A stretch of DNA of 36,135 nucleotides from the NCBI GenBank assembly GCA_016785955.1, contig JAEUWH010000058.1, positions 1 to 36,135 on the forward strand. The letters run 5' to 3'. The notes beneath the pieces were generated by a model, which was not told where the DNA came from, did no database searches, and worked only from the letters and a program-made list of their open reading frames with translations. This DNA comes from Pseudobdellovibrionaceae bacterium (GTDB taxonomy: Bacteria > Bdellovibrionota > Bdellovibrionia > Bdellovibrionales > Bdellovibrionaceae). The translations under genes and the position numbers were made by a program. Shown here piece after piece: positions 3,477 through 20,423 of this stretch (position 1 is its first letter; each line of letters starts with the position of its first letter).

Positions 3477-5207
3477 ATGAAACTGTCCTCTTGCTTTTTC
3501 TTACTTTTATCGTTTTTTGTGGGACCGTCTATGGTGTGGGCCAAAGCCAGTTGCGTTCAGTTTTATAATGAAAAGATCAACCACAGACCAAGCATGAACA
3601 AAGATCTACAAGTATCAACGGCTGACATCAATAGAATCGTACAAATGATCTTTCTTAAAATGCGCGCCGACCAATCTATTGACAGCATATTCCACGAATT
3701 AATTTCAACACTGAAGTCCGCAGCCAATGTCCAAAATGAACAGGCGTATACTCGGGCAATATCCGAGATAGGCGACAGTTCTGTTGTCGAAAATGAAACG
3801 GCAAACCGTCTGAACTCTTACTTCGAAAGAATGAAGACTATTACTCATTTGGTATCTAAACTAAAATCCGACTCAGAAAAGCCTAAGCTGTGGGGATCAA
3901 AAAACGGCGCCAATTTAGATATCAGAAAAATTGAAGAAATTCAGCAACTCTTTCAAACCATCAAGGCAGATCGAAAACATTTTCTTGAACGAAAACCCCA
4001 TATAGAAAAGCTGGCTACCCAATACTCTGATCACTACCCAATCATTCAAACCTTAGAGGCCTCAAGTAATCTGTATTTAAGCTTATTGATTAATGTTCGT
4101 GAACGTATGTTGGAACCAAGTACGCATTTAGGTGTGAACTTGGATGTGAACTTACATAGAAAATTGAATATGCTTCATGGATTACTCAGTACGCCTATTG
4201 AGGGTCTCCAAATGAGATCAAACAACTTACGACTACTTTTAGAATCACTCGAAGGGCGAGCCGCCCAGATGGCGCAGATCGAGTCTATACTCGCGTATCA
4301 GGGAAACACCCCAATTGAAGATGTGTACACTGCGGGTGGTTTCACTTTAGCAGAGTCTCAAGCCATAGCTGAATCCTATCGAAAATACCAAATTCAGGTA
4401 ACCGAAAAAGAGGCGAATAGTTTGAAAGTCAAATGGGCAAACTTAAAGCAAAACTCTATGAAATTTAAAAAAATGGCCATCGGCCTTGGGATCGCGGGGT
4501 TAGTAAGCTCGCCGATAATTGGCGTCAATATGCACAATCAAAAAATAGAGGATACATTCAATGCCCATGCTGTAAAAGTTGTGCAAGCGGAAGGCTCAAA
4601 AGCCGCACCCGACTTGAAATACCTTGTGGAACATTCACCTGATTTTAACAGCTTTAAGGCCGGGCTTGAACGAGATTCAGTGATAGCCAGCCTGAAGAAG
4701 GCCGACATCATTTTTTTGGCCCGATCAGCAAAATTTTACAACACAGATGCTGATATCTATATTTTTGATAAAATTTTCCAACAAGCCAAGGTTGAAAGTC
4801 CGTTTTCTACTCAAGAGGCTTCAGAATTGAGACAGGCCATTTTAAATCGACCGGGTTATCAAAAAACCTTTGGCCTAGGTCAAGACGATCTCAACACTCC
4901 AATAACGCTTTTAGAAGAATTTATTCGTGCGTCTGATAAAGGAATTTCTATAGCTGAGAATCTGACTCAGGAACGTGGGGAGCATGGGGTTGATAAAATA
5001 TCGTTTAAAGGTTACAATTCTTCATACCGGAGAAACGCTATCGAAGAAATCACTAAACCAATAACATCAGAGAGCAGCCGAGATTCGAAAATTATACAAC
5101 TTATTGTCACACATAGCGGCGACCTTACGACATCAGATGCAATTGATTTGGCGAAAAAAATTAGATCAGAAGGTAGGAGAGACGCACTATTATTAAGGTT
5201 TAAGTAA
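3477..5207 (+). CDS. Exported CxxFY protein with internal membrane segment
   Basis: This 576-aa protein of unknown family has a clear signal peptide (residues 1-22, ending MVWA) followed by K-A-S-C26-V-Q-F29-Y30. Residues about 35-320 are predicted long helices rich in K, E, Q and L. A single hydrophobic segment at about 334-350 (MAIGLGIAGLVSSPIIGV) is preceded by lysines, so the chain is probably anchored in the inner membrane with a large N-terminal periplasmic part; the topology of residues 351-576 is uncertain. The same plan, including the linker before the membrane segment, recurs in the 661-aa protein at 22211-24196, so the two are probably distant paralogues. The start is supported by AGGAG about 6 nt upstream. 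A terminator-like hairpin follows the stop. Confidence 0.8.
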   Translation: MKLSSCFFLLLSFFVGPSMVWAKASCVQFYNEKINHRPSMNKDLQVSTADINRIVQMIFLKMRADQSIDSIFHELISTLKSAANVQNEQAYTRAISEIGDSSVVENETANRLNSYFERMKTITHLVSKLKSDSEKPKLWGSKNGANLDIRKIEEIQQLFQTIKADRKHFLERKPHIEKLATQYSDHYPIIQTLEASSNLYLSLLINVRERMLEPSTHLGVNLDVNLHRKLNMLHGLLSTPIEGLQMRSNNLRLLLESLEGRAAQMAQIESILAYQGNTPIEDVYTAGGFTLAESQAIAESYRKYQIQVTEKEANSLKVKWANLKQNSMKFKKMAIGLGIAGLVSSPIIGVNMHNQKIEDTFNAHAVKVVQAEGSKAAPDLKYLVEHSPDFNSFKAGLERDSVIASLKKADIIFLARSAKFYNTDADIYIFDKIFQQAKVESPFSTQEASELRQAILNRPGYQKTFGLGQDDLNTPITLLEEFIRASDKGISIAENLTQERGEHGVDKISFKGYNSSYRRNAIEEITKPITSESSRDSKIIQLIVTHSGDLTTSDAIDLAKKIRSEGRRDALLLRFK

Positions 5208-5297: not shown

Positions 5298-6713
5298 ATG
5301 AAGCCGGTTTTTTTATGGTGTGTCCTGGGCATCATTTTTCTTAGAGCGAATGCCCAGCAAACTAATTCCGTTTCCATTAACGAACCACCGTCCAATGCGT
5401 TTATTTATCCGCAACAGCTGAGTGTACACTTACCTGATATCCACGAGTATAAAATACTCTCCGATGAAGATAAACTCATCTACCTTGCCTCGGCGATTGT
5501 GTTTGCGGCTCGATGGGAAGGCCCCACGGCGCTTAAAACCGGAGAGGCCAGAAAAACCGCCCAATTATTGTCGCTTCCTCCAGGATTTGAATTTTTTTTG
5601 GCCCAAAAATCTCATGCTTTTTCCGCGCTGCTATTAAAACTTGCCCTGTCCCGCTCGGCATTGGCGCGCATTGGACCGGTCCTCTCTTCGTTAGGTGGAT
5701 CTCTTTTTCGCAAAAGTGTTATGCCGGCCTCAGAACAAGCGGTGCATATTACCAATATTCTAAACAAGCAAAATAAAGTTTTGGATTTGGTTGCTGACTT
5801 ATCACGACAAAAAAAAACTAAATCCTTAACACCAAGTGAAGCCTCGCTGCTTAAAAAACAAATTGGTACACTTACAAAAGAAATCAAAACAGACATCGAG
5901 CTGTACCGACGCAGTGGCGGCGACGTCAAAGCCCTGGCCGAGGCTGGGATAAAGGCTAAAAAATCGTGGGCGGCCAGGATAGGCTCATTTGCCGTGACCG
6001 TCGCCGCTAGCTATGCCATCTTCGAGGTTTTCGATCGATTGATTTCAATGAAAGATTCAGACAAACAAATACCTACTTTGATCAGCAATTCAGATAGCTC
6101 TACGCCCGTTGTGTTAGGAAAAGAAGGCTCTCCCTGTGTGTATGGTCTGTACCCGTCCTCTCTCATAAAAAAAGACAAAGGTCTTGCCTGTGCCAGGCCC
6201 ACGTTCGAGTCCGGCATTTGCGCGAAGACTGATTTTCTGTGCCCAGATTTTGGTATGGCTTTAGGGAATGTAAAAACTCAAAAAAAGTTCTGCATCAAAG
6301 AAAACTCCCCTGCGGAATCGACATCGGCTCGTTGTGGCGCTTTGTTTCTACGTGAACTTCAGACCACCATCGATAAAAAAGCCACAATGACAACTTCTGA
6401 TCGGCAGACCATTGATCTACAGCTCAAAGAGAACGATGTGTTAAGGTTGGTTACGCTCATCAAATCACTGACTAGCCAATGGGAAACCGAACGATTGCTG
6501 TCCGGTAAAAACACCAAAGGGAAAATATCAATCCATCACTATTGCAACGATGAAACTTCATCGGGGCTGGATCTTAGAACAAAAGAATGTCAAGCCATCC
6601 GAGAGTTCGTACTGCACTTGAAATCGACCAAGGTCTCTAACAGACTCTTTGCCAGTGAATCACCGCCAGGTCTAAAAAAGGAAAAAGAGCCTGCGGCTGC
6701 GGCCACCAAGTGA
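5298..6713 (+). CDS. Secreted protein with Cys-rich C-terminal domain
   Basis: I do not recognise this 471-aa protein. Residues 1-20 form a signal peptide ending ANA before QQ. It lacks the CxxFY motif of its neighbours. Residues about 25-240 are helical, with a possible membrane-associated stretch near 228-245 (RIGSFAVTVAASYAIFEVF). Residues about 275-450 carry eight cysteines in contexts PCVYG, LACAR, GICAK, FLCPD, KFCIK, ARCGA, HYCND and KECQA, an even number consistent with disulfides in an oxidising periplasm. The C-terminus is Lys/Glu/Pro/Ala-rich. No strong Shine-Dalgarno precedes the ATG. It converges with the UbiB-like gene on the other strand, 48 bp away. Confidence 0.78.
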   Translation: MKPVFLWCVLGIIFLRANAQQTNSVSINEPPSNAFIYPQQLSVHLPDIHEYKILSDEDKLIYLASAIVFAARWEGPTALKTGEARKTAQLLSLPPGFEFFLAQKSHAFSALLLKLALSRSALARIGPVLSSLGGSLFRKSVMPASEQAVHITNILNKQNKVLDLVADLSRQKKTKSLTPSEASLLKKQIGTLTKEIKTDIELYRRSGGDVKALAEAGIKAKKSWAARIGSFAVTVAASYAIFEVFDRLISMKDSDKQIPTLISNSDSSTPVVLGKEGSPCVYGLYPSSLIKKDKGLACARPTFESGICAKTDFLCPDFGMALGNVKTQKKFCIKENSPAESTSARCGALFLRELQTTIDKKATMTTSDRQTIDLQLKENDVLRLVTLIKSLTSQWETERLLSGKNTKGKISIHHYCNDETSSGLDLRTKECQAIREFVLHLKSTKVSNRLFASESPPGLKKEKEPAAAATK

Positions 6714-6761: not shown

Positions 6762-9056
6762 CTATTTTGCATAAAACTTCGCGCATCCTGCAAAAGAAGA
6801 CGTATTTATTTTTTCGCCTGTCGCTGCCTGGGGCAGAGCAAAAACCTGATTTAAAGGCGATCTTCCATCGCGGACGTCATTGGCTAACTCCTTGGCCCGG
6901 TTCAGCAGCCCTTTTCCAAAACCAAAGAGTTTTTTACCTTGTTCGACGACCACCTGAGGATTTTCGATAACAGTTTTTGCCGCCCGAGTGCCGGCTTCAA
7001 CGACGCCATCTTTAACTAAGCCTCCGGCTTCTAGCAACGACAGATGATTGAAGCTGCCCAAAGTTCGTGTCATTAAAGCTGGATTTTTTCTGAATAAATC
7101 AGCTAACATCTCACTTGGTTTTTTCGTCGATTTGGTCATGTTCACCAGTCCCTGTGCCGCCTTGAACCCCCGAGCCAGCATCACAAAATTAGTGTCTAGC
7201 TCCACTCCATTTTTAACAAACAATCCGACAGCTTTTTCAATAACAGATTTAGATTTATCTGTGGCGGCGGTTTCACTGGATTCACTTTCTAAAAATGTTT
7301 TCGCCAGGGCTTCCACCTGCTCGAAGGAAAAATTTTCTTTATTGTTTGCCTGCAAATACACGCTGCGGGCTAAGGCCTTGCTGTTTTTAAGTGTGGCTCC
7401 TATTGCCATCAGCATGAACAACTCGCGTCCTTCGGGACCAATGACTCCGGCCATTCCATAGTCAATAATGTGGGCCTTTATACGATCCGAGTTTATACTG
7501 GCGTCTATTTTGATATTACCGGGCTGCATATCAGCATGGATAAATCCCGTTGAAAGAATGGCTTTCTCCATCCAGTTGGTAAATAAAATCTCAGCCACCT
7601 CACGAGCTTTTTCTGGCTGACGAGCATAAAAATCTTCCAGTGAAACTCCGGCCACCCAATCACTGGCGATCACTGCGTCTTTATTTGACATATACGCAGC
7701 AGGAACCTCAATGGACAACTTGGATCCATCAGACAGTATTTTACTTTCGCCACCCAAAAGACTTACGGCCTGATTTTGATTTTTTTGAGTCGCTCGCGCG
7801 TTGAGTTCTTCTCGGACCAGTTGAATTAAATCAGAAATGAATTTGCTGTAATTCTCGCCAATATTCCCATCAGAGAGCAAAGGATCTCGTTTCAACGTGT
7901 CCAATACAGAGTCTAAAAAGCGTTCATCCATTTCAATCATCGCCTCGATACCTGGCTTGATCAAGCGAACGGCAATGAATCGTTCTTGCCCGTCATAATG
8001 AAATCGCACTCGGGCTTTGTGAACTTGAGCCATCGATCCGACTTTGATGGGTTTTTCGTCTAGTTGCAAAATTTCAAATTCACTGAATTGCAAATTATTT
8101 AACAGGGCCGCCACATCTTGGCTGCGCGCCGGAGGTAAATTTTCTTGGAATGTTTTTAGAATGGTAGATAGCTCTACAGGAACGCCCTCTTCCGTCGAAA
8201 CCATTTGAAAAATTTTATGTAAATGTGGTCCTACGTTGCGGCTGAATAATTGAAAACGTTCCAGGACCGTCTCTACCTCGGGACGTTCCATTTGTAGAAA
8301 GATAAGATTCCATATCACCGATTCTGGCAGTTGAGAAAAATACTCGGTTAAAACAATCTCCATGAAACGTTTTGCCTTGGGATCTTTGATTTTCAGTTGT
8401 GTATTTTCTAACAGTTTTCCACCACTGGTTCTAATCGTTTTCGCTACCGACTGAACCGCCTCTGATAATTTATTCAAGTACTGAAGTTTTTCTTGATCTG
8501 ATTTTTGCTGCATGGCCGTGATTGCCAACCAGGAATCTCTAGAATTTTCAAACAGCAAATCAAAGAAAGTGACATTTCGTTGCGAAACGGCTCCTACGAA
8601 ATTCAAAAATCCCGCCAGCATTCCCTGGGGTGGAAAGGAAAACTCGATATCCATTAATCGCCTGTATGAGTTAGCCACGCGTTCAAACTCTCTTTCCACT
8701 CCCGCTGCTGGAACCAAAATTTTTGGCAGAGGCACCTGTCCTCGTAAAAAATATTCGATTTCACTTTGCACGGTTCCTTGCGGATGCAAGTAGGCGCTAC
8801 GCACGTGTGCTAGTTCATCCGCCGAAATCACATGCTCGGGAATAACTCCCTTAATTTCTTTATGTGCCTTGGCCCGCACAATCAAAGCATTCAAAGCCGC
8901 TAACTTTTCATGATCATTCCGAGCCAGCGTGACGGCGCGAATAAATCGGTCTTGAATCCAATACCGCCCCAGATCCAGCGATTTAATATCACCCGAAGCA
9001 AAGCTTGACGACACCACTAAAAAAACCAGGCACGCAAGCCGACGAATCTGTTTCAC
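6762..9056 (-). CDS. Exported UbiB/ABC1-family atypical kinase-like protein, CxxFY at C-terminus
   Basis: The 764-aa chain has a signal peptide (residues 1-20, ending SSSFA) and a central UbiB/ABC1 (ADCK) kinase-like domain at about 275-560. The KxGQ-like motif is K281-I-F-Q284. The A-rich loop is represented by VGSMAQVHKA (339-348). The position of the ATP-binding Lys in AVKxxxPGI is R364 (AVRLIKPGI). The catalytic-loop equivalent is H507-A-D509-M-Q-P-G-N514, and the metal-binding motif is D532-Y-G. So Asp and Asn are kept, but the Lys is Arg and the KxGQ Gly is Phe. Residues 20-270 are a helical region not seen in ordinary UbiB. The chain ends GC758-A-K-F761-Y762-A-K. Ordinary members are cytosolic or mitochondrial; export is odd. 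Translation starts with GTG three bases after the AAA+ stop, with GGAGGT inside the end of that gene, so it is translationally coupled. Confidence 0.82.
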   Translation of the reverse strand: MKQIRRLACLVFLVVSSSFASGDIKSLDLGRYWIQDRFIRAVTLARNDHEKLAALNALIVRAKAHKEIKGVIPEHVISADELAHVRSAYLHPQGTVQSEIEYFLRGQVPLPKILVPAAGVEREFERVANSYRRLMDIEFSFPPQGMLAGFLNFVGAVSQRNVTFFDLLFENSRDSWLAITAMQQKSDQEKLQYLNKLSEAVQSVAKTIRTSGGKLLENTQLKIKDPKAKRFMEIVLTEYFSQLPESVIWNLIFLQMERPEVETVLERFQLFSRNVGPHLHKIFQMVSTEEGVPVELSTILKTFQENLPPARSQDVAALLNNLQFSEFEILQLDEKPIKVGSMAQVHKARVRFHYDGQERFIAVRLIKPGIEAMIEMDERFLDSVLDTLKRDPLLSDGNIGENYSKFISDLIQLVREELNARATQKNQNQAVSLLGGESKILSDGSKLSIEVPAAYMSNKDAVIASDWVAGVSLEDFYARQPEKAREVAEILFTNWMEKAILSTGFIHADMQPGNIKIDASINSDRIKAHIIDYGMAGVIGPEGRELFMLMAIGATLKNSKALARSVYLQANNKENFSFEQVEALAKTFLESESSETAATDKSKSVIEKAVGLFVKNGVELDTNFVMLARGFKAAQGLVNMTKSTKKPSEMLADLFRKNPALMTRTLGSFNHLSLLEAGGLVKDGVVEAGTRAAKTVIENPQVVVEQGKKLFGFGKGLLNRAKELANDVRDGRSPLNQVFALPQAATGEKINTSSFAGCAKFYAK

Positions 9057-9059
9057 ACG

Positions 9060-9067
9060 CTACCTCC
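9060..9067 (-). promoter_or_regulatory. Ribosome binding site deciding the GTG start of the kinase-like gene
   Basis: On the minus strand GGAGGTAG lies 3 nt before the GTG start. It overlaps the last two codons and stop of the AAA+ gene, where it encodes W-R-stop. This supports GTG initiation and translational coupling. Confidence 0.7.
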
Positions 9068-12000
9068 ATCCGTAAAATCTAAGACACAGATTCGCTTCAA
9101 ATTTCCGCGTGATAGGGTTTATATTGTAAAAGCGTTCTGATTTATATCTATCGGGACCCAGACGACGAACCTGAGTAGCGGTGGCCATGATATCAGTTTC
9201 CAACATCTTTAGAATCTCACGAATATTGATTCGCTCGTTTCGCATACGTCGCACATAATTGCGGACAATATTAACTTCATCAAGATCAGCTGATTGTATG
9301 TTTACCGATACGCCTAAATTTTTAAATATCGTAGCCTTGGCTTCACGAATTTTCATGCGCATAATTTCGGTGACTGTGTCAAAACCAGGGGGATAGGCGA
9401 TATGCACACGAACACGGCTGATCAAAGGCGCCGGAATACCAAATTCTTCTAACAGCCGAGTGATTTCAACGTTATTCTCCTTCAGATACTGTTTAAATTC
9501 TTTATCTAACTCGGCACTGGACATTCTTTCGTAACGCTCATCTTTTTGAATTTTATCCATAAACCAGTTCAGCACGTCCGCCCCTATCGTATTTGCCGTA
9601 AGGATGACTGTCGAATTCACAAGAGTATTATGTCTTTGTTCATTCTGACCATCGGACACTTCAAAATAGTCGAAATTCTGATTAGAAAATGCTTTTAAAA
9701 GAACTTCTAATACTTTTGGATCTGCCTTTTCCACCTCATCAAGAAGTAAAACAGAGTGTGGATTTTTATCGATCGCGTCCGACATCTCCTTTAATAAATC
9801 ATTGGGACTCCGCATGCCCTTCTTGTACATGTTCATATCAATATAAGCTAATGGGACCCCGGTTGCTTTTGCGACCGCTTTAGCCATTTCCGTTTTTCCA
9901 ACCCCTGGTGGACCTTCAATCCACTCCATTAACATACCACCTCGGCCAGAATGGAGGCTGGCTAATCCGATTTCAGTGCCTTCTTGTATAGGAGCCAGGA
10001 TATGCTGATGACCAACGACATCTTTAGCCACTTTATCCATAAATTTTGTCATGGTATCGATCTGTGCCTTTTCTGTCGCCAACTGCTCGGGAACCCCGTA
10101 AAGATAAGTCAGAGCTTTTTCCACCTCGCTTCGACGGATAGTAATAGCAGAGCCCTTCTCTGTTTTAAGTTCCCTTGCCATACCACGCAAAAAGTCTTCA
10201 GATCGACGCGGTTCGGGATTGACTGATTTAAGCACGGCTGTTTTTTCCATAACGAAATCTAAAGTATCGTCATTAATTCTAACATCAGGAAGTTTTTCGG
10301 ATAAAAATTTCTTTAAATACAATTTCAAATCATCGTTACTAAGGGGTGACACTGACGTGTAGTTCAATGACGAAACTATGTCCGGCGTTTTCACACGGTC
10401 CTTCAGATACTGCGCCGAATCTGTCGTCGCAATCCACTTGAGGCCACTCGCCTCATCTGCAAAATCAGGACTAATAAGCTCTAAAATATCTGTTTTCGAT
10501 CCAGTGACCGATCCGAAACCAGCAACACCGGCCATATTATTAACAAAAAGAACTGTGGGCACTGTTCGGTAGGCTTGACGAAGCTGTCCCGCCCGTTCTG
10601 ACAATGTTCCCACCATCGAAATATCTCCAAAAGCTCCCGTATCAAAAATCAAGGCCTTCCATGTTCTGGGAATTTTTTTAGCCACTGAACTCTGAATGTT
10701 ATTCTTGTCCGTGGTATTACCGACCAAAACCTGAGTGACCGTGTCACCAGAAAGCACCTGATCAGAAATCGTTTTGATGATGCGGTCTCTTGTCGGTGAC
10801 GGCGCAATCAGCTTGCTAAAGGCTTTTCGCGCATCTGTGAATTTACCCAAAAATTCAATAGCGCTACGATTTTCTTCTGCTTGGACAGAGCTGTCCGTCA
10901 ACGTGGACGGGACAAAAGTGCTTTCAATTTTAAAATAATCCACACCGTCCGTGGATTTGCTAAGATCCACCTGTCGAGCCAAGTTGGGGTGAGATAAAAT
11001 CCCATCTTTAATTTGAAAACCTAAATTGGGTGAATTCACTTGGGGCACACCGGACTGAAAGGTCATTTTAACTGTCACACTATCAGAAAGACGACGGACA
11101 AAAATTCCCGGCGCTTCTGGGTGTGTGTAAATTTGATAGCTAATGTCCTTATCAACTAATTTTATATTGATGTTAGATGTCTTAGGGGCCGCCGGCACAG
11201 ACTCTCGACTTTCTGGTGGTTGTCCTGATGTATCCACCTGAGACTGAGATGCGGCCTCTGACATTGATGATGGTTTCAAAACATCATTGGATTTCAGATC
11301 AGGAGCCGTCATCACCGACACGTTTCCACCCATTTGATTGGCTACACCCGTTTCCTGTGACGATCTATTCACTGACTTTAGTCCTACACGTGAAAGTGTT
11401 TCTTGTAACGATACGGCCGTTCCAGAAATCACCGCACTCAACGCTGGATTTTCGCCTTTGTGATTATCGATATCTATTTTGGATAGTTGAGGTAGATACT
11501 TAGGGCTTAACAAGCGATACTCACCTGTAGGATAATCGACTAAAAGTGTCTGTGTTTCACCTTTAAGTGTCCGAGTGCTTAAACTCAGATAGTACCTTTG
11601 CGATTTCGCCTCGATAGTGCGTATATTGGCGAGTGTCACATTCATCAGTGGCCCCGATGAAAAAGGAATCTCAAAACTTTCAAAATTATTTGGCCCTTTA
11701 AAAAACAAAATAATTGAATTGTTGGTCTGTACTAAAAACCAAGTTGTTGGATTGACTAGATTCCGATTACCATCTTCAATCATCACTCGTTTTATGTCGC
11801 CCGTTAGTCCAACCTGTTGGCCACTAAATTGACTGATAGCCTGTATAGAATCAACAGTATACCAACTTTTTTTATCACTGCCAGGGCCATTTGATAACGA
11901 TATCTTATATTGATACTCAGATTTTTCAATATGCAAGGTGACTCGTCCGCCAAATTCAATTGAGTCTTCGATGACAGCGCCACTACCGGCGCCGCCTCCC

Positions 12001-12080
12001 ATTCCAAATGGGTTTTTCCAATCGATGGCATAGGACATCGAACTCATAAATAGACAAAATAAAATCAATCGGACGTACAT
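9060..12080 (-). CDS. Exported ClpA/B-like AAA+ protein with degenerate D1 and intact D2, CxxFY at C-terminus
   Basis: The 1006-aa product has a signal peptide (1-18, ending SYA). A beta-rich N-terminal region (about 35-200), a Ser/Gln/Pro linker (240-300) and a second beta-rich stretch (305-390) follow. Residues about 430-640 align with ClpB D1 by order, but the Walker A position reads VGNTTDKNN, the Walker B position reads VLFVNN, and the arginine-finger region is lost. Residues about 680-965 are a good D2: VVGH near 688-691, Walker A GPPGVGKT (723-730), Walker B VLLLDE (777-782), sensor-1 N830, a likely Arg finger R889 and a sensor-2 region near 947-954. The usual GYVGY pore loop after Walker A appears deleted. 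The C-terminus is C999-L-R-F1002-Y1003-G-W-R. Middle gene of the operon, 26 bp from the TelA-like gene, with AAGGTGG before its ATG. Confidence 0.85.
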   Translation of the reverse strand: MYVRLILFCLFMSSMSYAIDWKNPFGMGGGAGSGAVIEDSIEFGGRVTLHIEKSEYQYKISLSNGPGSDKKSWYTVDSIQAISQFSGQQVGLTGDIKRVMIEDGNRNLVNPTTWFLVQTNNSIILFFKGPNNFESFEIPFSSGPLMNVTLANIRTIEAKSQRYYLSLSTRTLKGETQTLLVDYPTGEYRLLSPKYLPQLSKIDIDNHKGENPALSAVISGTAVSLQETLSRVGLKSVNRSSQETGVANQMGGNVSVMTAPDLKSNDVLKPSSMSEAASQSQVDTSGQPPESRESVPAAPKTSNINIKLVDKDISYQIYTHPEAPGIFVRRLSDSVTVKMTFQSGVPQVNSPNLGFQIKDGILSHPNLARQVDLSKSTDGVDYFKIESTFVPSTLTDSSVQAEENRSAIEFLGKFTDARKAFSKLIAPSPTRDRIIKTISDQVLSGDTVTQVLVGNTTDKNNIQSSVAKKIPRTWKALIFDTGAFGDISMVGTLSERAGQLRQAYRTVPTVLFVNNMAGVAGFGSVTGSKTDILELISPDFADEASGLKWIATTDSAQYLKDRVKTPDIVSSLNYTSVSPLSNDDLKLYLKKFLSEKLPDVRINDDTLDFVMEKTAVLKSVNPEPRRSEDFLRGMARELKTEKGSAITIRRSEVEKALTYLYGVPEQLATEKAQIDTMTKFMDKVAKDVVGHQHILAPIQEGTEIGLASLHSGRGGMLMEWIEGPPGVGKTEMAKAVAKATGVPLAYIDMNMYKKGMRSPNDLLKEMSDAIDKNPHSVLLLDEVEKADPKVLEVLLKAFSNQNFDYFEVSDGQNEQRHNTLVNSTVILTANTIGADVLNWFMDKIQKDERYERMSSAELDKEFKQYLKENNVEITRLLEEFGIPAPLISRVRVHIAYPPGFDTVTEIMRMKIREAKATIFKNLGVSVNIQSADLDEVNIVRNYVRRMRNERINIREILKMLETDIMATATQVRRLGPDRYKSERFYNINPITRKFEANLCLRFYGWR

Positions 12081-12106
12081 ACAACCACCTTGCTGAAAAC
12101 ACGCAA

Positions 12107-14008
12107 CTATTTTTTGTTGTCACCTTTAGATCTGACAATCCCATCAACAGCATTAGCAATCCCGCCATTTAGCACCTCATGCTTGCCATCATTATGTCCT
12201 GCAATAAGTTCAGCGTTGGCCTGTTTTAACTTGTCGTATGCCGCAGCCATCTCTTTTGCAAATTTGTCACGAGCGACAGACATTCTTTTTTCCACCTCTG
12301 CTAACACTTTAGGGTCAACCACCGACGTACCCGCCAACTCAGCTGTTTGCCTAAGAGCTTTTTCTTGGGCACCAGCTAACGATTTCAAACGCTCTTCCAT
12401 TAAGTTTTTTGTGGCTTTGGCCCGCATGATCTGAGCCTCTTGTGCTGCAATAGCACTGTGGGTGGATTCGGTGATAGCCATGATAGGAATAATTTCCCGC
12501 TGAAGCACGTCACTTTGATTGATAACACTCAGACCCGCTAAAATTGTCACGTCTATTTGACTGCATGAATTTTTTAGTATTCTAAGAGTTGCAATGACAG
12601 AGTTAAGCTCTCTTTGAACACGTTGACCTATGTGAATTTTGATCGCTTCGACTTGAGCCGAATTAGAACTTCCCAATTCAGCAATGTATTGTTCAATAAG
12701 ACCTGCGATAATAGCCAAGCGAGCCACTTCTTTTTCAAGGTCCAGTGAGTACTGCACCGCCTTCGCTCGCAATCCGTTTAATGTCTGATTATCCGACTGG
12801 ATTGTCATCATCCCGTCATTCAATGCTTGCCGAGTGAGTTCAATCTTCTTTTTCAGACTCGCTTTTGCTAATTCCTTATTGTTGTAGCCATCAAGTTTAC
12901 TGGCCATAAATCCCGCCACTCTTCCAACCAGCGGAATATTTTCTCCTTTTTTAATAAGACGCGATGCCCTTCCTGCTGTTTCACTGCCATCGATAATAGA
13001 ACCATATTCTTTTAGGGAGGCTAAAAGATCATCGTAGCTTTTTAATGTTCCCTCATTCTTTTTACTTCCAATACTCAACGCGGCTTCAGAGCGCTGCAAA
13101 AGGTTGTTATCTTTTAAAAACATATCAGCAGCTGTTTGATTTGTAGCTCTAACAATTCCGCCCGTTTTTTCGTTCATTTGAGCATCGCCAGGTCGACTAG
13201 ATAAATCCATCAGTTTTGCAAAGTGGATTTGAGCTTTCTCTTGAATAAGCTTGGCTTCATTTGGTGAAACAGAAATAGTAATTTTGGACCCGTCAGCGCC
13301 CACAACATCCATGGACTGCACATCGTTATTACCCTTAAATAGATCAATTAACAAATTCTTGGATAGAGCATGATGAATGTCCGTCAACGACAAACTCATA
13401 CCATCATTCATATTAAACGCCTCCAACGCCTGAGACAGCACCACACTAGCAGCCCCTGACGAGTCGGTGGACATTTGAACCAAAAGCTCCTTATAAAGGG
13501 CCAAAACGCGATCCTTTCCCTCTTGAGATAACGTGTGAGCATCAATTTTAGAAACCAATGCAGCCATTGTATATTGCGCATATATGTTTGCATCCGACGC
13601 CAACGATGACTGTATGGCTGAATTAGAAATATCCATGCCGCTGACTCCAGCCATGATCTCGATTCTAGTCTGAATAATGTCTATTGTCTTAGGATCATTA
13701 TCTATTTTTAAAATTCGAATCGCATCATCAACGACCTTGCGAACAGTGTTATTTGATGCATAGACTGATAACAGTTTGTCGATGGCCATAGGATCAACAC
13801 TTGCGAAAGCTGGAATTGCTTCCATTTGTGTTTTGAGCGTACTCAGCTTCTGAGTGTTAACAAATGAAGTGACCGAGCCTGGTTGTTGTTGCCCTGTCAC
13901 CTGAGCCCCTGATTTAGCTGCGGATCTAAAGCCAACCTGCTGAGCATTTACGGCTGATGATAAAAGAGTGACAGTCACTAATAGGCTGATGCGTTTTCGA
14001 GTGGTCAT
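12107..14008 (-). CDS. Exported TelA-like coiled-coil protein
   Basis: First gene of the minus-strand operon. The 633-aa protein has a signal peptide (1-22, ending SSAVNA) and a helical body. Residues about 300-600 follow the plan of the TelA/KlaA toxic-anion resistance family: an ENIPLVGRVAGFMASKLDGY stretch at about 356-375, then a basic helix, an element like the TelA segment leading to the LEQY helix (EKEVARLAIIAGLIEQYIAEL), and a later long helix with VQRELNSVIATLRIL. It is longer than usual TelA proteins (roughly 360-400 aa) because of an extra N-terminal helical region at 50-290. TelA proteins are cytosolic, so a signal peptide is unusual. It lacks CxxFY. The start is secured by a perfect AAGGAGGT (14015-14022). 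TelA membership is by eye and should be tested with a profile search. Confidence 0.75.
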   Translation of the reverse strand: MTTRKRISLLVTVTLLSSAVNAQQVGFRSAAKSGAQVTGQQQPGSVTSFVNTQKLSTLKTQMEAIPAFASVDPMAIDKLLSVYASNNTVRKVVDDAIRILKIDNDPKTIDIIQTRIEIMAGVSGMDISNSAIQSSLASDANIYAQYTMAALVSKIDAHTLSQEGKDRVLALYKELLVQMSTDSSGAASVVLSQALEAFNMNDGMSLSLTDIHHALSKNLLIDLFKGNNDVQSMDVVGADGSKITISVSPNEAKLIQEKAQIHFAKLMDLSSRPGDAQMNEKTGGIVRATNQTAADMFLKDNNLLQRSEAALSIGSKKNEGTLKSYDDLLASLKEYGSIIDGSETAGRASRLIKKGENIPLVGRVAGFMASKLDGYNNKELAKASLKKKIELTRQALNDGMMTIQSDNQTLNGLRAKAVQYSLDLEKEVARLAIIAGLIEQYIAELGSSNSAQVEAIKIHIGQRVQRELNSVIATLRILKNSCSQIDVTILAGLSVINQSDVLQREIIPIMAITESTHSAIAAQEAQIMRAKATKNLMEERLKSLAGAQEKALRQTAELAGTSVVDPKVLAEVEKRMSVARDKFAKEMAAAYDKLKQANAELIAGHNDGKHEVLNGGIANAVDGIVRSKGDNKK

Positions 14009-14225: not shown

Positions 14226-15749
14226 ATGATCGCCAGTAGGAAATTAAATCATTTTGATACAGTCACAGTGAATATATTTAAGACACCTGTCTTACATATT
14301 ATATTTTCCGGACATATTTTACTTTCAGTGTTCTTTATCACTATAATAGACATACCCCGCACATGGGGTTCATCTTTGTCCTGTTCGCAGTTTTACGAAA
14401 GCCAGCCAAGGACCCTGGTCGATCACATAGTCAAAAATCTCCAAGAAAACCCGAATGGTTTTCCCGCTCTTATCATATCCGAGTCTTTGCAGGAATACCT
14501 ACAACCTATTATAGAAAAATACCAAAAAGTTATGGAGCGAGCAACCGAGTCCAACGCTATCAACCCTATTAAAACAATGGTGAGCAGTACAGAGACAGCA
14601 CTCACTAGATTTTACGAATTGTCGTCCAAAATCAATAAAGAACTCGATCGCTCCACAAAAAATCGCAGAAAAATTCTGGAACTTTCAGAGGATTTAAGAT
14701 CCTGCTTTAGCAATCTGATGCTTTGTCGAACCAATATTAAAGACCAACTACCTGTGGTTAGATCGGAAATTGAGCGCGACCAAGCCATACTTGATAATAT
14801 AAAGTCCATCGTTGACGAATTGAATCGGTTTAAAGCAGAACTCCCCAGCCTGACCGACATTCCTCAAATGTTTCACAATGAATTGAAGAATGCTATTGAT
14901 AGCCAAACTTACTTGCTTGAACACTCGCTTCGTCTTGTTCTGCAAAGTCATATCGAAGTCCAAACCCAACTGCTGAATTTAGCGCAAGCACAGATTCCAC
15001 TTCTTGTGAGAGTTCAATCAGATGCAGCCAATTTAGAGTCGGCGGGAGCCAAAGACATTGGTGCTCTTGAATTGTTGAGCGGTCGTAAAAGCAATAAGAC
15101 CGTCGTTCCTGAGCAAACATTAACAGATTTCAGTAAGCGCTTGGAATCAAGTCAGAGGACTCAATGGGGAGGTGATTTTATCAGAATGGCATCAGATGGG
15201 TACTCGATTCGACAACTTTTCGACACCTTAAATACCGATCGTAATTATAAGGGGGTTTATTTGTCCCTAAAAGACGTACAAGAAATCGCAGAGATCTATT
15301 TAAAAAAAATTCATAAAGATTCGAGTACTGGTGGTTTCGTTAACTATGATTTTAAACTCAAGAGCTATTCCCGTAAGAGTAGTTGGACTGTGTTAAATGA
15401 GGGGTTTTCGGGACTTAAATATTTGATATTTTTGACTGGTTCCAGCCATCCACAGATTTATATCGAATACAACATTTGGCTAAATAAGCTTATTGATCAG
15501 AAGATAGAATCTATTGATGAACAGCTTGCTGCTCTAGATAACGAACCATTCCGTCTAAACAATGTACTCAAAAAATTTAAAATTAAATCTACGCTTAAGC
15601 ACGTCTTGTCCCTATTTTTGAAAATAAAAAATATCGGCGATCAAAATGTAGTCCGAACGGCGCAAAGCTACCCATTTGACACTATATCTTGGGTTAACGA
15701 TCAAAGGTATGAGCAGACCATGGATATGCATCCTGAGATGCCCAAATGA
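14226..15749 (+). CDS. Exported CxxFY / Cx6C-family helical protein (paralogue 1)
   Basis: First of five paralogues. The 507-aa product has a long basic N-region and a hydrophobic segment at about 22-42, then S-L-S-C53-S-Q-F56-Y57. A family signature ENPNGFPALIISE follows at about 75-87. Residues 90-270 are long helices with the conserved pair C160-x6-C167 (RSCFSNLMLC), probably a disulfide or helical hairpin. A conserved LESAGA patch comes next, then a less conserved C-terminal half containing NIWLNKLIDQKIESID. No enzyme motif is visible. GAGGTG is 4 nt before the ATG. Its stop overlaps the next start by 4 bases (ATGA), indicating one operon. Closest to the 546-aa paralogue at 20424-22064. 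Confidence 0.8.
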   Translation: MIASRKLNHFDTVTVNIFKTPVLHIIFSGHILLSVFFITIIDIPRTWGSSLSCSQFYESQPRTLVDHIVKNLQENPNGFPALIISESLQEYLQPIIEKYQKVMERATESNAINPIKTMVSSTETALTRFYELSSKINKELDRSTKNRRKILELSEDLRSCFSNLMLCRTNIKDQLPVVRSEIERDQAILDNIKSIVDELNRFKAELPSLTDIPQMFHNELKNAIDSQTYLLEHSLRLVLQSHIEVQTQLLNLAQAQIPLLVRVQSDAANLESAGAKDIGALELLSGRKSNKTVVPEQTLTDFSKRLESSQRTQWGGDFIRMASDGYSIRQLFDTLNTDRNYKGVYLSLKDVQEIAEIYLKKIHKDSSTGGFVNYDFKLKSYSRKSSWTVLNEGFSGLKYLIFLTGSSHPQIYIEYNIWLNKLIDQKIESIDEQLAALDNEPFRLNNVLKKFKIKSTLKHVLSLFLKIKNIGDQNVVRTAQSYPFDTISWVNDQRYEQTMDMHPEMPK

Positions 15750-18610
15750 AAACAATGAATCTGCTGCTGATAGCTTTGTTAGTGTTGACTTGGTCGCCAA
15801 AAGGCCGCACGCAAGGGGCGTCCATTTTACAAGACTCAACCACACAAATTGAAACACGTGCGGGTAAATGGCAACGCTTTTTAGATCCCTCTCAAATTAA
15901 ACAAAATCCGACACTGGTCAATATTTCGTCTTCAGCCGCTGCATTTTATGTCTTAGGTGCTTTGCAAGTGATGTATAGAATGGCGGCCGAACCTGAAAAA
16001 GATGCTGAAATGCTAAAAAATTTTTTTACAAATCAAGTATTCAGCGCTCAAGCTTTTATTTCTATATCCATGTATTCCATCGGTGTTCAATCCGTGAACT
16101 CGGCATTTCATACCTTCGCGGTTAAAAACAATTGGATTAAAGATGAATTAAATATTCAGCGAGTTATGGCAGGACTGGCTCAGCAAAAAAATCTGCCGGG
16201 TCATCCCGGTATACTGACTCAACCGAAAGGCTACACACCCGAACTAATAAGTGAATGGAAAAAAGTCAGAGCCCAAGCTGAAAAATCCATCCCGGGGCGT
16301 TTTAGTGCCAACCGATTTGCTAAAGTTTCACTGCTGACCAGTTTTTCTGTAGCGTTACCTTTGGTTACCGTGTTTTCTGACTTGCTTGCAGATCCAGACA
16401 TTCAATTTTATGCAGAAAGTCTTATATCGTCGCCAGAAAAAGTAAATCAAATGATACGTGAAAAAAACATCACTCCCCTGGAGGCTCATGAACGGGCGTA
16501 TCAACGCTGGGTCGTCGGAAATAAAATCGCCGATTACACCCCCGCTCTTTTGTCCGCATGGACCGCGCTTTCTATCCAGCTTTTCGCTATACCCCAAATC
16601 GTAAAGGCGTCTGGTCTTTTAATAGAAAAATTTACGGGCGCAGCGCCCACTGCTTTAAAACCTTATTTAGTAAAAGGCATTCAATTAGCTCGGTCCGGAG
16701 TGCATTATGTACCCCAAGGGAAGCTGGCCTCGATTGTTGGAAACGGGATTGTTTTTCTCAGCCTGAATGAACTACTTTCAAAACCTTTCCAAAGAATCTA
16801 TGATAATTTCACTTACCGAAAACGCCTTACCGAATCAAAGACATTGGTTCAGCAAACCCAACTGCGTCCCGAAATCGGGTCCTCGTGCTTGGCTACGCTG
16901 AAAAAAAATCCACAATTTTCAGTGAGCACATTGAACGCAACCCCCTACTCCACGCTTCGAAAAGTTCTTTTATTAGAAGACGTGGATGGGTGTTCTGATT
17001 TGCCGCCCAGCCTTAGCGAAGAACTGGAATCCATGTCGACGGCCTATTCGCAATGGCGGCATCTGCACTTATCAGAAAAATTAGCCCCGCTAAATTTGTG
17101 GGCCGCCCACACCGCACAAGCATTGAATGATTATTCCACCAGTGAATATTTATATCGAGAACTGGTTCAAGCTGTAAAAACGAATGATAAGTTTCTCACT
17201 CACCACGACGCTTTTTATGGTCTAGGCAAAGTAACTGCGGACGGGAAATCAGATAACACAGCGGCAAAACTCGCCGAGACCATTCAATTACTCAAACGCC
17301 AAATCGAAGCGAGTCAGTCAACATCACCACCTCAAAATGGTTTTGATCGAAAAGTTCTGATTCTGTACAACAGAATGGATCGGTTCTTGTCCGTATTGCT
17401 AAGCTCTTATAAAAAACCAGAATTCTTGACCAAATGGCTTAATGGAATCAATTTCAACAAGACTCAAGATTCGAGTCAAATGACGAGTCAGAAAATGACC
17501 GGCAACAGGCTCGTTGAAATCTATGCGGGAAATGCATTTTTTGAATTTCAAGATTTTATAAAGAACAATGCCAAAGACATCACCGGATATCAACGCTATG
17601 AATTTGATAAACTCTGGGCACACGCGCAAGACACTACCCCCAAGGCACCTGGTGAATTTTGGATGAACACCATCCGCTATAAGCTGGCCAATTCCCCGTT
17701 TCGAGCCTATCCCGAAGCCGTTTCTGTACAGGGTTTAAGTGTCAGAAATAATTTCGAGTACATTTTAACACAGGCTTTGTGCTCAAACAATGAAAGTGCG
17801 CACATTAAATCCATACCATTTTGGTCATTGAATTTGTCACTCCCTTTGTTATTAGATGCCACAGATAAAATCGATTGTTCGAAAGCCACCCAGTCTCTGC
17901 TTTGGCCCGATCAAGAGAAAAACATTTTTAAATCTAATCTTGAATCTGAGGTCCCTCGTTACGTAAATTTATTTGATTTAGGCACAGCGAAATTACAAGC
18001 AAAAATCAATAACGCCAATTTTGATTTTGAGTCTTGGTGGCAAAGCAAAGTAGGCGGGCCTGCCGACAAAGAGTTTCAGGAAAAAGCAACCCGAGTGCGT
18101 GTGCTTTATGAAACTTCTATTCGTCCCGCACTGTTCACTAGCTCTGGCGCCGAAACAGAAGAAATCGGTTTAACGGCGTCTCTGTTACAAGAAATAAAAA
18201 TGTACACCGACGTTTTGAAAACTCGGGTTTTAAATAACTCAACAGCTTTTGATGCTTATTGGTCGGTCGCAACCACAGTAACCGCCCTAGTAACCAAAGC
18301 GCCTTCAGACCAAAACCTTGCCGGCATCCTGCAAACCAGTGGCTGGAACAAGTCACTGGGAACTGGAACAGAAACTGACACACCCAAATCTGCAAAGGAA
18401 CGCTATCTCTGGGTCAATCGTGTGGGAACCAACCTTATCGAATCCGCCCGCAAATATGCTTTAGAAAACACGGATGTCAGCAAACTTAATCCAGATCAGC
18501 AAATTTTACTATTGCAAGCCCGCACAGCTATTGAGTCTCGTATAAAACAAATATTAGAAATCTCGAAATTTCCGTTACTTTTTTCCATTCAAAACAAGGA
18601 TCAGCCATGA
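15746..18610 (+). CDS. Large exported membrane protein, function unknown
   Basis: A 954-aa protein with no recognised domain. Residues 1-22 form a signal peptide or first membrane helix. Further hydrophobic segments are at roughly 62-80, 100-116, 192-212, 268-292 and 325-345. They are followed by a soluble region (about 370-954) with only scattered cysteines. It lacks the CxxFY motif. It overlaps both neighbours by 4 bases (ATGA at 15746-15749 and 18607-18610), so it is tightly co-translated with two exported CxxFY proteins and may be their membrane partner. The last 60-70 bases of the gene recur in degraded form just before the start at 20424, evidence that a copy of this gene's 3' end was once duplicated there. 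Confidence 0.8.
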   Translation: MKTMNLLLIALLVLTWSPKGRTQGASILQDSTTQIETRAGKWQRFLDPSQIKQNPTLVNISSSAAAFYVLGALQVMYRMAAEPEKDAEMLKNFFTNQVFSAQAFISISMYSIGVQSVNSAFHTFAVKNNWIKDELNIQRVMAGLAQQKNLPGHPGILTQPKGYTPELISEWKKVRAQAEKSIPGRFSANRFAKVSLLTSFSVALPLVTVFSDLLADPDIQFYAESLISSPEKVNQMIREKNITPLEAHERAYQRWVVGNKIADYTPALLSAWTALSIQLFAIPQIVKASGLLIEKFTGAAPTALKPYLVKGIQLARSGVHYVPQGKLASIVGNGIVFLSLNELLSKPFQRIYDNFTYRKRLTESKTLVQQTQLRPEIGSSCLATLKKNPQFSVSTLNATPYSTLRKVLLLEDVDGCSDLPPSLSEELESMSTAYSQWRHLHLSEKLAPLNLWAAHTAQALNDYSTSEYLYRELVQAVKTNDKFLTHHDAFYGLGKVTADGKSDNTAAKLAETIQLLKRQIEASQSTSPPQNGFDRKVLILYNRMDRFLSVLLSSYKKPEFLTKWLNGINFNKTQDSSQMTSQKMTGNRLVEIYAGNAFFEFQDFIKNNAKDITGYQRYEFDKLWAHAQDTTPKAPGEFWMNTIRYKLANSPFRAYPEAVSVQGLSVRNNFEYILTQALCSNNESAHIKSIPFWSLNLSLPLLLDATDKIDCSKATQSLLWPDQEKNIFKSNLESEVPRYVNLFDLGTAKLQAKINNANFDFESWWQSKVGGPADKEFQEKATRVRVLYETSIRPALFTSSGAETEEIGLTASLLQEIKMYTDVLKTRVLNNSTAFDAYWSVATTVTALVTKAPSDQNLAGILQTSGWNKSLGTGTETDTPKSAKERYLWVNRVGTNLIESARKYALENTDVSKLNPDQQILLLQARTAIESRIKQILEISKFPLLFSIQNKDQP

Positions 18611-20343
18611 CAATGCACATGAAAATTGAACATAAATATTTTATTCCATTGTTATTCATTTGCCTTCATGCCTGGTCTGGCCCCGAGTGTGTTTTCTTTT
18701 ACAGCAAAAAAGAAAAACCAGGCGACCAAACGATGGTTGTCGGCAATATCCTTGGCTCAACACGAGACCAGATCGAACGAGCTGTGTTCGAATTTTCGGA
18801 CCTCAATCTAGATCAAATCAAAGCCAAGCTTCGCTCTACCCCGGGATGGGAACAGGTCTTGCTCGAAAATCAAAATTTAAGATTGGAAAAATTAACCAAG
18901 ATAGCCACCCTTCTGAATGAAGGAAAATTTCTTCTTAGCCCTCTACATCATGCCTTGTTTCTTAAAGCCGCTGGTCTGGGTTTCTCTGACTCTACTATGA
19001 AAGGACAAAGTAACTATATCGTAGGGATGGGAGCGCTCACTCAAAAATCCTTAAAACCGGTAAAGGACATCGTCGAAGGAAATATAGCAGATAGCCAAAG
19101 CAGACGAGAACTTATCGCTATAAACATGGCAAGTTATTTCAATAATTTTATTAATAGATATGTGAATAGATCATCGTGGAGTGAGCTGAGCCAGCAAGAT
19201 AAAGTTGCTCACGCCGACATCATTATCAAAGATTTTAACCTGAACATTCGTTATGTAAAAATAACACCAAAAGATATAGTCCCGGCATTGGATGCCTGGT
19301 CTAAAATCGCCGCCGAGCCAGATGGACTAAAACATCTCATAAAAATATTTGAGTATCTTCTTCCGGAAAACCTTAAAATAGCCCAGGCTCAAGCCCGTGG
19401 TGCCACGTCATCTGTAATTAAGTATGGCGTCCCTACAAGTTTAGGAACCTTACTGCCTGTCGCCTTTTTTAGTCTTGATCAAGGGGTTTCAGTAACACAA
19501 TGGATAGCCCACTATGTAGCCGCCAAAGACATGATGCTGCTGCCTCTGGTGACTATGGGAGGGTTCCTCGGAACGGGAATCATGTCCGTATCAAAAGTGA
19601 CGGCGGGCCTACCCGATTTACCTGGGCGCGTGAAAAGTTCTTTTGTGCGCAGAAGACTGCAACAGCAAACTATCGATTTTGTTCAAACTCGTGCCCAGAC
19701 CGATATACATCTTGAAAGAGATCAACTCAAAGCTCTTCACAACGAAACAGAAATAGTCGATCGCCTAGATGTGGATTTTAATGCCATCAAAGCCGATTTA
19801 AAGCTAAACAGTCTTTTCAGCATAATTGAAATTTCTGAATGGCAAAATGCATTCAAAGAAGCGGTCAACAAACTGGCTGAAAGAACATCTTTACTGGAAG
19901 AAAAGAGTCGACGGCTGAAACATCTTACGGATGAATTGATTTTAACCGCTCGACAAGATCACCTGAGCACTACGACTCGAGCAAAAAACCTGGGTCAGAT
20001 GTCCGAACTAGACAACGCTCTTTCAAACCAAGTTGCCCAAATTGTCCAATTCCAAATGGATTTACTGTACCTAGCCGCTGCCTACGATAGGTATTTGGAA
20101 AAAACAAATAAGGCTATTGAAAATCCTGACTTATCCCACAGTCAACTGGCCATCATTGACATGAAACAGAAATCGCTAGTGACCGCAAAATCAAATTTAA
20201 CTGCAATGGCCGCATTTGCCACTACGGCATTAAATTCAACAATATCTTTTATGCAAATGAGACATGATGCGGAAACACTGCAATCGAGTATTCCAATTCT
20301 GAAATCACTTGACGGCCCTCAAAACGAATCGAGGAATCCATAA
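18607..20343 (+). CDS. Exported CxxFY protein with two central membrane segments
   Basis: Unrecognised 578-aa protein. Three in-frame ATGs lie within the first five codons; the first overlaps the preceding stop (ATGA) and has aaggat 5-6 nt upstream. The signal peptide (about 1-24, ending HAWS) is followed by G-P-E-C28-V-F-F31-Y32. A helical region (40-265) precedes two hydrophobic segments at about 272-290 and 305-325. The C-terminal part (350-540) is long coiled-coil-like helix with KLAERTSLLEEKSRRLKHL. It lacks the Cx6C pair of the other family, though the layout (exported helical part, membrane part, coiled coil) recalls the 576- and 661-aa proteins. Its TAA overlaps the upstream ATG of the next gene by one base. 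Confidence 0.78.
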   Translation: MTMHMKIEHKYFIPLLFICLHAWSGPECVFFYSKKEKPGDQTMVVGNILGSTRDQIERAVFEFSDLNLDQIKAKLRSTPGWEQVLLENQNLRLEKLTKIATLLNEGKFLLSPLHHALFLKAAGLGFSDSTMKGQSNYIVGMGALTQKSLKPVKDIVEGNIADSQSRRELIAINMASYFNNFINRYVNRSSWSELSQQDKVAHADIIIKDFNLNIRYVKITPKDIVPALDAWSKIAAEPDGLKHLIKIFEYLLPENLKIAQAQARGATSSVIKYGVPTSLGTLLPVAFFSLDQGVSVTQWIAHYVAAKDMMLLPLVTMGGFLGTGIMSVSKVTAGLPDLPGRVKSSFVRRRLQQQTIDFVQTRAQTDIHLERDQLKALHNETEIVDRLDVDFNAIKADLKLNSLFSIIEISEWQNAFKEAVNKLAERTSLLEEKSRRLKHLTDELILTARQDHLSTTTRAKNLGQMSELDNALSNQVAQIVQFQMDLLYLAAAYDRYLEKTNKAIENPDLSHSQLAIIDMKQKSLVTAKSNLTAMAAFATTALNSTISFMQMRHDAETLQSSIPILKSLDGPQNESRNP

Positions 20344-20354
20344 TGTTTAAATCT

Positions 20355-20423
20355 TGCATAACACGAGTATTGAAATTCTGGAAATTCTACTTAATTTTTT
20401 TCCATTCAAAAAAAGGATCAACT
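20355..20423 (+). repeat. Degraded copy of the 3' end of the 954-aa gene
   Basis: The stretch from about 20357 to the ATG at 20424 aligns with 18541-18606, the last codons and leader of the preceding genes. They share ttttttccattcaaaa, aaggatca and the ATGACAAT start, with roughly three quarters of positions identical. It suggests this region arose by tandem duplication. It also explains the apparent 27-codon N-terminal extension of the next gene. Confidence 0.65.

Follow-up and report, generated by a model that had tools for sequence, protein, structure and literature searches.

The window analysed here is the whole of contig JAEUWH010000058.1 (36,135 nucleotides) from the Pseudobdellovibrionaceae bacterium assembly GCA_016785955.1. 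Three linked genes lie on its minus strand, described in a first-pass annotation as an exported TelA/ClpB-like AAA+/UbiB-like kinase operon. The open reading frames (ORFs) confirmed their coordinates and their spacings of 3 and 26 bp: a UbiB/ABC1-like kinase of 764 amino acids (aa) with a GTG start (6762..9056), a Clp-type AAA+ ATPase of 1006 aa with an ATG start (9060..12080), and a helical protein of 633 aa with an ATG start (12107..14008), all three predicted to be exported. Judged from sequence, two old families of Sec-exported adenosine triphosphate (ATP) enzymes, both restricted to the phylum, appear to be represented at the locus.

The kinase label was borne out by a match to Pfam ABC1 (PF03109, E 1.7e-23; 83.4 bits against a cut-off of 22.9), and the UbiB equivalog model of ubiquinone synthesis, TIGR01982, gave 96.9 bits, below its cut-off of 487.55. 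AAA/AAA_2 and ClpA-like models matched the second protein, which carries two Clp-type AAA+ domains (D1 and D2); its family profile spanned D1 and D2 of ClpC/ClpA and matched ClpC, ClpA, ClpB and HSP101 chains at E 1e-78 to 1e-68. The TelA identity of the 633-aa protein did not stand: it had no match in Pfam, including PF05816 (TelA), or in NCBIfam, and its hhalign probability was 2.9% against the true, cytosolic TelA that PF05816 found elsewhere in the same genome.

Sec-type signals were seen at the start of each of the three proteins, as had been claimed. The predicted cleavage sites are MKQIRRLACLVFLVVSSSFA^SGD in the kinase (signal peptide at 8997..9056, minus strand), MYVRLILFCLFMSSMSYA^IDW in the AAA+ protein (12027..12080, minus strand) and MTTRKRISLLVTVTLLSSAVNA^QQV in the 633-aa protein. 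Ribosome-binding sites precede the chosen starts (GGAGGT 5' of the kinase GTG, AAGGTGG for the AAA+ gene and AAGGAGGT for the 633-aa gene), so downstream starts that would remove the signal peptides are disfavoured. A home-made, crude scan of N-termini called signals in 15 of the 19 exported-type AAA+ proteins and in 0 of 11 cytosolic ClpA, and in 41 of the 52 kinases whose beta-3 Lys is replaced by Arg (Arg-type) and in 0 of 18 cytosolic UbiB. These counts are conservative, since evident signals, such as those of L171 and L175, went uncalled and the start of L174 is truncated; signals were also seen by eye in further exported-type AAA+ proteins beyond the 15. Clear lipoboxes, which make sense solely at the outer face of the inner membrane, were present in four kinase orthologues (L231, L238, L243 and L244), and signal peptides were kept in the families though the sequences diverge to 16-37% identity.

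It could be argued that export makes no use of these hydrophobic N-termini, either through start-site error or because they are uncleaved anchors leaving the enzyme in the cytosol, where AAA+ and kinase folds normally reside. We consider this very unlikely in view of the ribosome-binding sites at the exported starts, the positively charged n-regions with AXA-type cleavage sites, the lipoboxes, the separate cytosolic ClpA, ClpB, UbiB-type and TelA genes in this genome, and the cytosolic relatives without such N-termini. In both families the signals are conserved well beyond this genome, which agrees with the earlier proposal that normally cytosolic ATP enzymes are exported, and we infer that export of the AAA+ protein and the kinase actually takes place.

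A profile built from seven AAA+ members (alignment A3) was searched against 369 Bdellovibrionota genomes; 19 exported-type proteins, some cut by contig ends, were recognised among the 30 best-scoring matches and were compared with 17 cytosolic Clp proteins. Identity between the seed members and the window protein is only 16-35%, and in a quick tree with long branches and an unsure inner order, a single branch with a support of 100 split the exported from the cytosolic Clp proteins. D2 of the window protein (residues 722-862; 9495..9917, minus strand) contains GPPGVGKT, LLLDEVEK and the sensor-1 residue N830, while the Arg finger R889 and sensor-2 R954 lie C-terminal of this span. The D2 Walker-A Lys (K729) and sensor-1 Asn were conserved in 19/19 exported proteins, the Walker-B Glu (Glu782) and the Arg finger in 18/19, and sensor-2 was near-invariant. 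The aromatic pore loop of D2 (GYVG) was lost in 19/19, including the window protein, whereas 17/17 cytosolic proteins retained it. D1 of the window protein is degenerate (approximately residues 430-650; 10131..10793, minus strand); its Walker A and B were lost there and in the homologue of the same-genus genome G063 and were retained in most other exported proteins, most of the family carrying Walker A in both domains. The sequences show that the D2 hydrolysis site is intact and under selection in a protein whose aromatic threading loop is gone. The AlphaFold model, made from a shallow alignment, had a predicted local distance difference test score (pLDDT) of 36.

Clp/Hsp100 unfoldases (ClpA, ClpB, ClpC), of which Plasmodium HSP101 is an exported example, have the same two-domain AAA+ order, whereas the exported AAA+ family lacks the D2 GYVG, has an N-terminal region different from that of the 17 cytosolic comparison proteins, bears a signal peptide and forms a separate branch. 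TorsinA is a Clp relative of the endoplasmic reticulum lumen without aromatic pore loops (PMC5425593). Torsins, which are lumenal, and the exported AAA+ proteins, predicted to be extracytoplasmic, are both Clp-related, with ATPase residues kept and the aromatic pore loop absent; the exported proteins differ in being bacterial, in having two AAA domains where torsins have one, and in a C-terminal Cys tag. By analogy, the exported AAA+ protein probably works like a torsin, yet it is not one by Pfam: the window protein was not among the matches to the Torsin model (PF06309), and 3 of 7 relatives matched weakly (best E 0.004). In another class member, an exported AAA+ gene adjoins a gene for a 1419-aa exported protein (L315:745-5004, minus strand) with a Cys near the C-terminus (SCKAKLQGLAKGLTL).

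The kinases were examined as a group of 52 proteins, many from one genus, defined by an Arg in place of the beta-3 Lys and with a median length of 712 aa; 18 cytosolic UbiB served for comparison. The ABC1 domain of the window kinase (residues 304-564; 7365..8147, minus strand) includes the Gly loop VGSM, the beta-3 Arg364, HAD509, N514 and DYG532. Arg replaces the beta-3 Lys in all 52 grouped kinases, and a few exported-looking members outside the group retain the Lys. The catalytic Asp (D509) and the DFG Asp (D532) were each found in 52/52, the metal Asn (N514) in 51/52, and K367 in 49/52. Position 340 is Gly in 49/52 exported kinases versus Ala in 17/18 cytosolic UbiB; it was equated with Gly52 of PKA and Ala339 of ADCK3 by motif register (GxGxxG / AAASIG / GVGTMA), not from structure. 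The Ala-rich loop of UbiB type (AAAS) is absent from the window kinase, which has VGSM instead. In ADCK3, A339G changes the preference from ADP to ATP and enables autophosphorylation (reviewed in PMC4718504). Compared with UbiB/ABC1/COQ8 proteins, these kinases share the ABC1 domain, the K and Q of KxGQ, and the catalytic and DFG residues, but they are predicted to be exported, are about 700 aa long, have a restored Gly loop and a beta-3 Lys-to-Arg change, lack the C-terminal membrane helix and carry a Cys tag. By sequence, the kinase site is altered but retained. The AlphaFold model of the window kinase also had a pLDDT of 36 (shallow alignment).

The first-pass annotation had offered repurposed nucleotide sites as one way to reconcile these folds with export; the AAA+ site is kept and the kinase site looks retuned, neither being simply lost. 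Alternatively, both proteins could be exported pseudo-enzymes, their folds reused as nucleotide-independent periplasmic scaffolds or binding domains. The periplasm has little free ATP, the beta-3 Lys is replaced throughout the kinase group, D1 is dead in the window and G063 AAA+ proteins, and the pore loop is lost. However, unused sites should decay, as D1 of the window did, and the D2 Walker-A Lys, sensor-1, Arg finger and sensor-2 stayed near-invariant in 19 AAA+ proteins despite 16-35% seed identity, while the kinases kept their catalytic residues in 52/52 and regained a Gly loop. The pseudo-enzyme explanation is thereby weakened, and we regard it as unlikely. That the AAA+ protein and the kinase use ATP outside the cytoplasm is, on these conserved residues, probable.

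A short terminal motif is common to the two enzymes. The window AAA+ protein ends ANLCLRFYGWR (CLRFY, residues 999-1003; 9072..9086, minus strand; C999 invariant in A3) and the kinase ends FAGCAKFYAK (CAKFY, residues 758-762; 6771..6785, minus strand; C758 invariant in 11 orthologues), the C-terminal Cys being invariant in both seed alignments. The link to neighbouring proteins with CxxFY at their N-termini, noted at first, thus proved stronger than claimed, since the C-termini of the AAA+ protein and the kinase bear the motif too. A Cys within the last 20 residues was found in 51/52 Arg-type kinases versus 0/18 cytosolic UbiB, and in 15/17 complete exported AAA+ proteins; the tail itself was not selected for, because the profile matches of several members stop before it. 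An alignment of eight divergent exported window neighbours has just five invariant columns, of which the C, F and Y of CxxFY make up three, and these helical neighbours showed no profile similarity to the 633-aa protein. A census covered 744 kb of this genome (17%), taken as stretches, with 618 greedily called ORFs. It contained 23 exact CxxFY versus 3.8 expected; about 12 of these directly follow a signal peptide, and 6 are among the last 14 residues of their proteins (P about 1e-4, judged by placement). In other genera the motif is looser (C-x-x-hydrophobic-F/L).

The motif could be coincidental, or could reflect disulfide chemistry and no common role: 19% of sampled genes encode a Cys among the last 20 aa, so that a single Cys is in itself unremarkable. 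Set against this background, the 51/52 kinases and 15/17 AAA+ proteins, the clustering of exact CxxFY at protein ends and the invariant columns of the eight neighbours make this explanation improbable. Short protein-end motifs, some with a key Cys, are familiar from PEP-CTERM, MYXO-CTERM and the CaaX box. In contrast to these, the CxxFY tag has no C-terminal transmembrane segment and also occurs at the mature N-terminus; the exported AAA+ and kinase tails lack the membrane helix and basic end that follow the motif in MYXO-/PEP-CTERM-type tags, and the tag Cys is followed by 3-18 residues (up to about 18), not exactly three as in CaaX-type signals. We know of no sorting signal in which one motif is used N- and C-terminally without a membrane helix. 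A literature search, with subscription journals mostly outside its scope, returned nothing on point for Bdellovibrio, whether on such a tag already described or on an exported kinase or AAA+ protein.

Several other exported proteins of this genome bear the tag. Two radical S-adenosylmethionine (SAM) proteins with CxxxCxxC (L282:3935-5434, minus strand, and L289:1746-2963, plus strand) have a signal peptide followed by CSNFY and CESYY, respectively; it would be very unusual for radical-SAM chemistry to take place outside the cytoplasm. Two exported subtilases (L305:5925-8537, minus strand, and L284:4086-6878, plus strand) end CLGFYN and CQRFYGVTMGKKAK, and the former also has a lipobox-like LLNSC. 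An exported 657-aa protein (L309:1250-3223, minus strand) ends CEHFYGVSQWCV; it shows, by eye, a Rossmann-like stretch and has no Pfam match. Beyond this set, L122, a relative of the 633-aa protein in another family, bears an N-terminal DECSRYF tag.

The neighbourhood was searched in 141 genomes of the order. In G063, homologues of the kinase (37% identity), the AAA+ protein (35%), the 633-aa protein (26%) and a 954-aa protein (28%) lie within about 12 kb, together with a homologue of a 471-aa protein recognised by eye, in an arrangement that differs from that of the window. A scan of public genome contigs gave a single clear relative, Bdellovibrionaceae bacterium MAG_57 (the same contig as G063), and no further exported-type protein among the 80 loci of that scan. 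Most genomes of group g4 carry an exported UbiB-like orthologue of about 700 aa; its gene is solitary in G016, a complete g4 genome. The neighbourhood is therefore narrowly conserved, whereas the families themselves are not narrow: the cluster is conserved, rearranged, in a single relative of the same genus. The idea of the trio as a machine fared similarly; five genes cluster in G063, but a fixed three-part complex is unsupported because the AAA+ and kinase genes are mostly solitary elsewhere. In the searches made, which spanned 369 genomes of Bdellovibrionota, both enzyme families were met only within that phylum; 0/48 genomes outside the phylum, a small and biased sample reached through other loci, gave more than ClpA-/UbiB-scale matches, which suggests restriction to the phylum. 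Distant, longer homologues of the 954-aa protein (L125-L130, family f7; about 1100 aa) occur without an adjoining AAA+ or kinase gene.

AAA+ unfoldases and protein kinase relatives are assumed to act where ATP is. Export signals and ATP-site residues are kept across the phylum in two unrelated families, one of them apparently retuned towards ATP as in ADCK3, which would imply a usable nucleotide pool outside the cells and raises the question of where exported enzymes obtain ATP, perhaps from prey. We propose that, after Sec export, the motif docks the proteins to a shared extracytoplasmic receptor, fixes them to it covalently via the Cys, or carries them onward. The AAA+ protein would act in a torsin-like manner, in ATP-switched remodelling of partners without threading, with the helical 633-aa protein and the neighbouring CxxFY coiled-coil proteins as candidate partners, and the UbiB-like protein would be an ATP-driven kinase or ATPase whose substrates are proteins or membrane lipids. 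The most likely supplier of the ATP would be a prey or host cell that has been opened (a bdelloplast-like space or prey cytoplasm). Prey as the ATP source and the role of the tag are guesses, which we hold to be somewhat short of probable. Wider still, and more doubtful, is the suggestion that a terminal tag (C-x-x-hydrophobic-aromatic, at either mature end) gathers ATP-, SAM- and protease-type enzymes exported by Sec into a nucleotide-supplied extracytoplasmic or prey-side compartment; if true, this would be a so far undescribed Bdellovibrionota sorting tag, with a cytosol-type enzyme set outsourced.

A related possibility is that these proteins are predation effectors, delivered after Sec export in a tag-dependent manner to the cytoplasm of the prey, which offers both ATP and SAM; shared delivery would explain why an ATPase, a kinase and radical-SAM enzymes have one motif. 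The tagged exported set does include ATP- and SAM/iron-sulfur-dependent folds, and B. bacteriovorus is thought to kill through proteins secreted into prey (PMC11003981). On the other hand, no delivery route is known, the families are also present in phylum members of unknown lifestyle, and the lipobox kinases suggest membrane anchoring, so that we treat delivery into prey as possible but doubtful. The proposal of prey-derived ATP is backed circumstantially by the secreted proteins of predatory relatives, by periplasmic ATP-dependent steps reported in bacteria (as cited in PMC4289276), and by the tagged radical-SAM enzymes, which would need cytosol-type cofactors as well.

Several points weigh against the main reading, of exported and tagged enzymes that use ATP. 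An ATP/ADP translocase was considered as the ATP source and rejected, none of the Tlc family being found in this genome, with one weak partial match in the 141 genomes. The predatory habit of this organism is inferred from its phylum alone, the tagged subtilases, which need no ATP, show that the tag is not confined to ATP enzymes, and Arg in place of the beta-3 Lys often weakens kinases. Related sequences were each counted separately throughout, and the kinase counts are not independent, since many of the 52 share one genus. Outside the genus of the window genome, the AAA+ and kinase genes are usually not adjacent. In predators, the fate of prey ATP would become a directly testable question, and the shared motif provides a handle, through mutation of one Cys, for finding a receptor or route.

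The neighbours of the trio described next are encoded on the plus strand. The two proteins whose homologues also cluster with the trio in G063 are an exported 471-aa Cys-containing protein (5298..6713; similarity seen by eye in ORF lists, unscored) and an exported 954-aa protein with several hydrophobic segments (15746..18610). Exported proteins with an N-terminal tag are encoded at 219..1766 (TTCDSFY), 3477..5207 (ASCVQFY), 14226..15749 (LSCSQFY), 18607..20343 (PECVFFY), 20343..22064 (YLCSQFY), 22211..24196 (NTCLSFY), 24199..25701 (SECKNFY), 25817..27292 (KECLHFY) and 27467..29254 (TTCHAFY). A second cluster of this type (CPKFY, CHGFY, CLDFY, CESYY and CAHFY) occurs at L289, on contig C110 of the same genome. 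A transposase-like ORF, by eye of ISAs1/IS4 type, is located at 34802-35950, close to the contig end.

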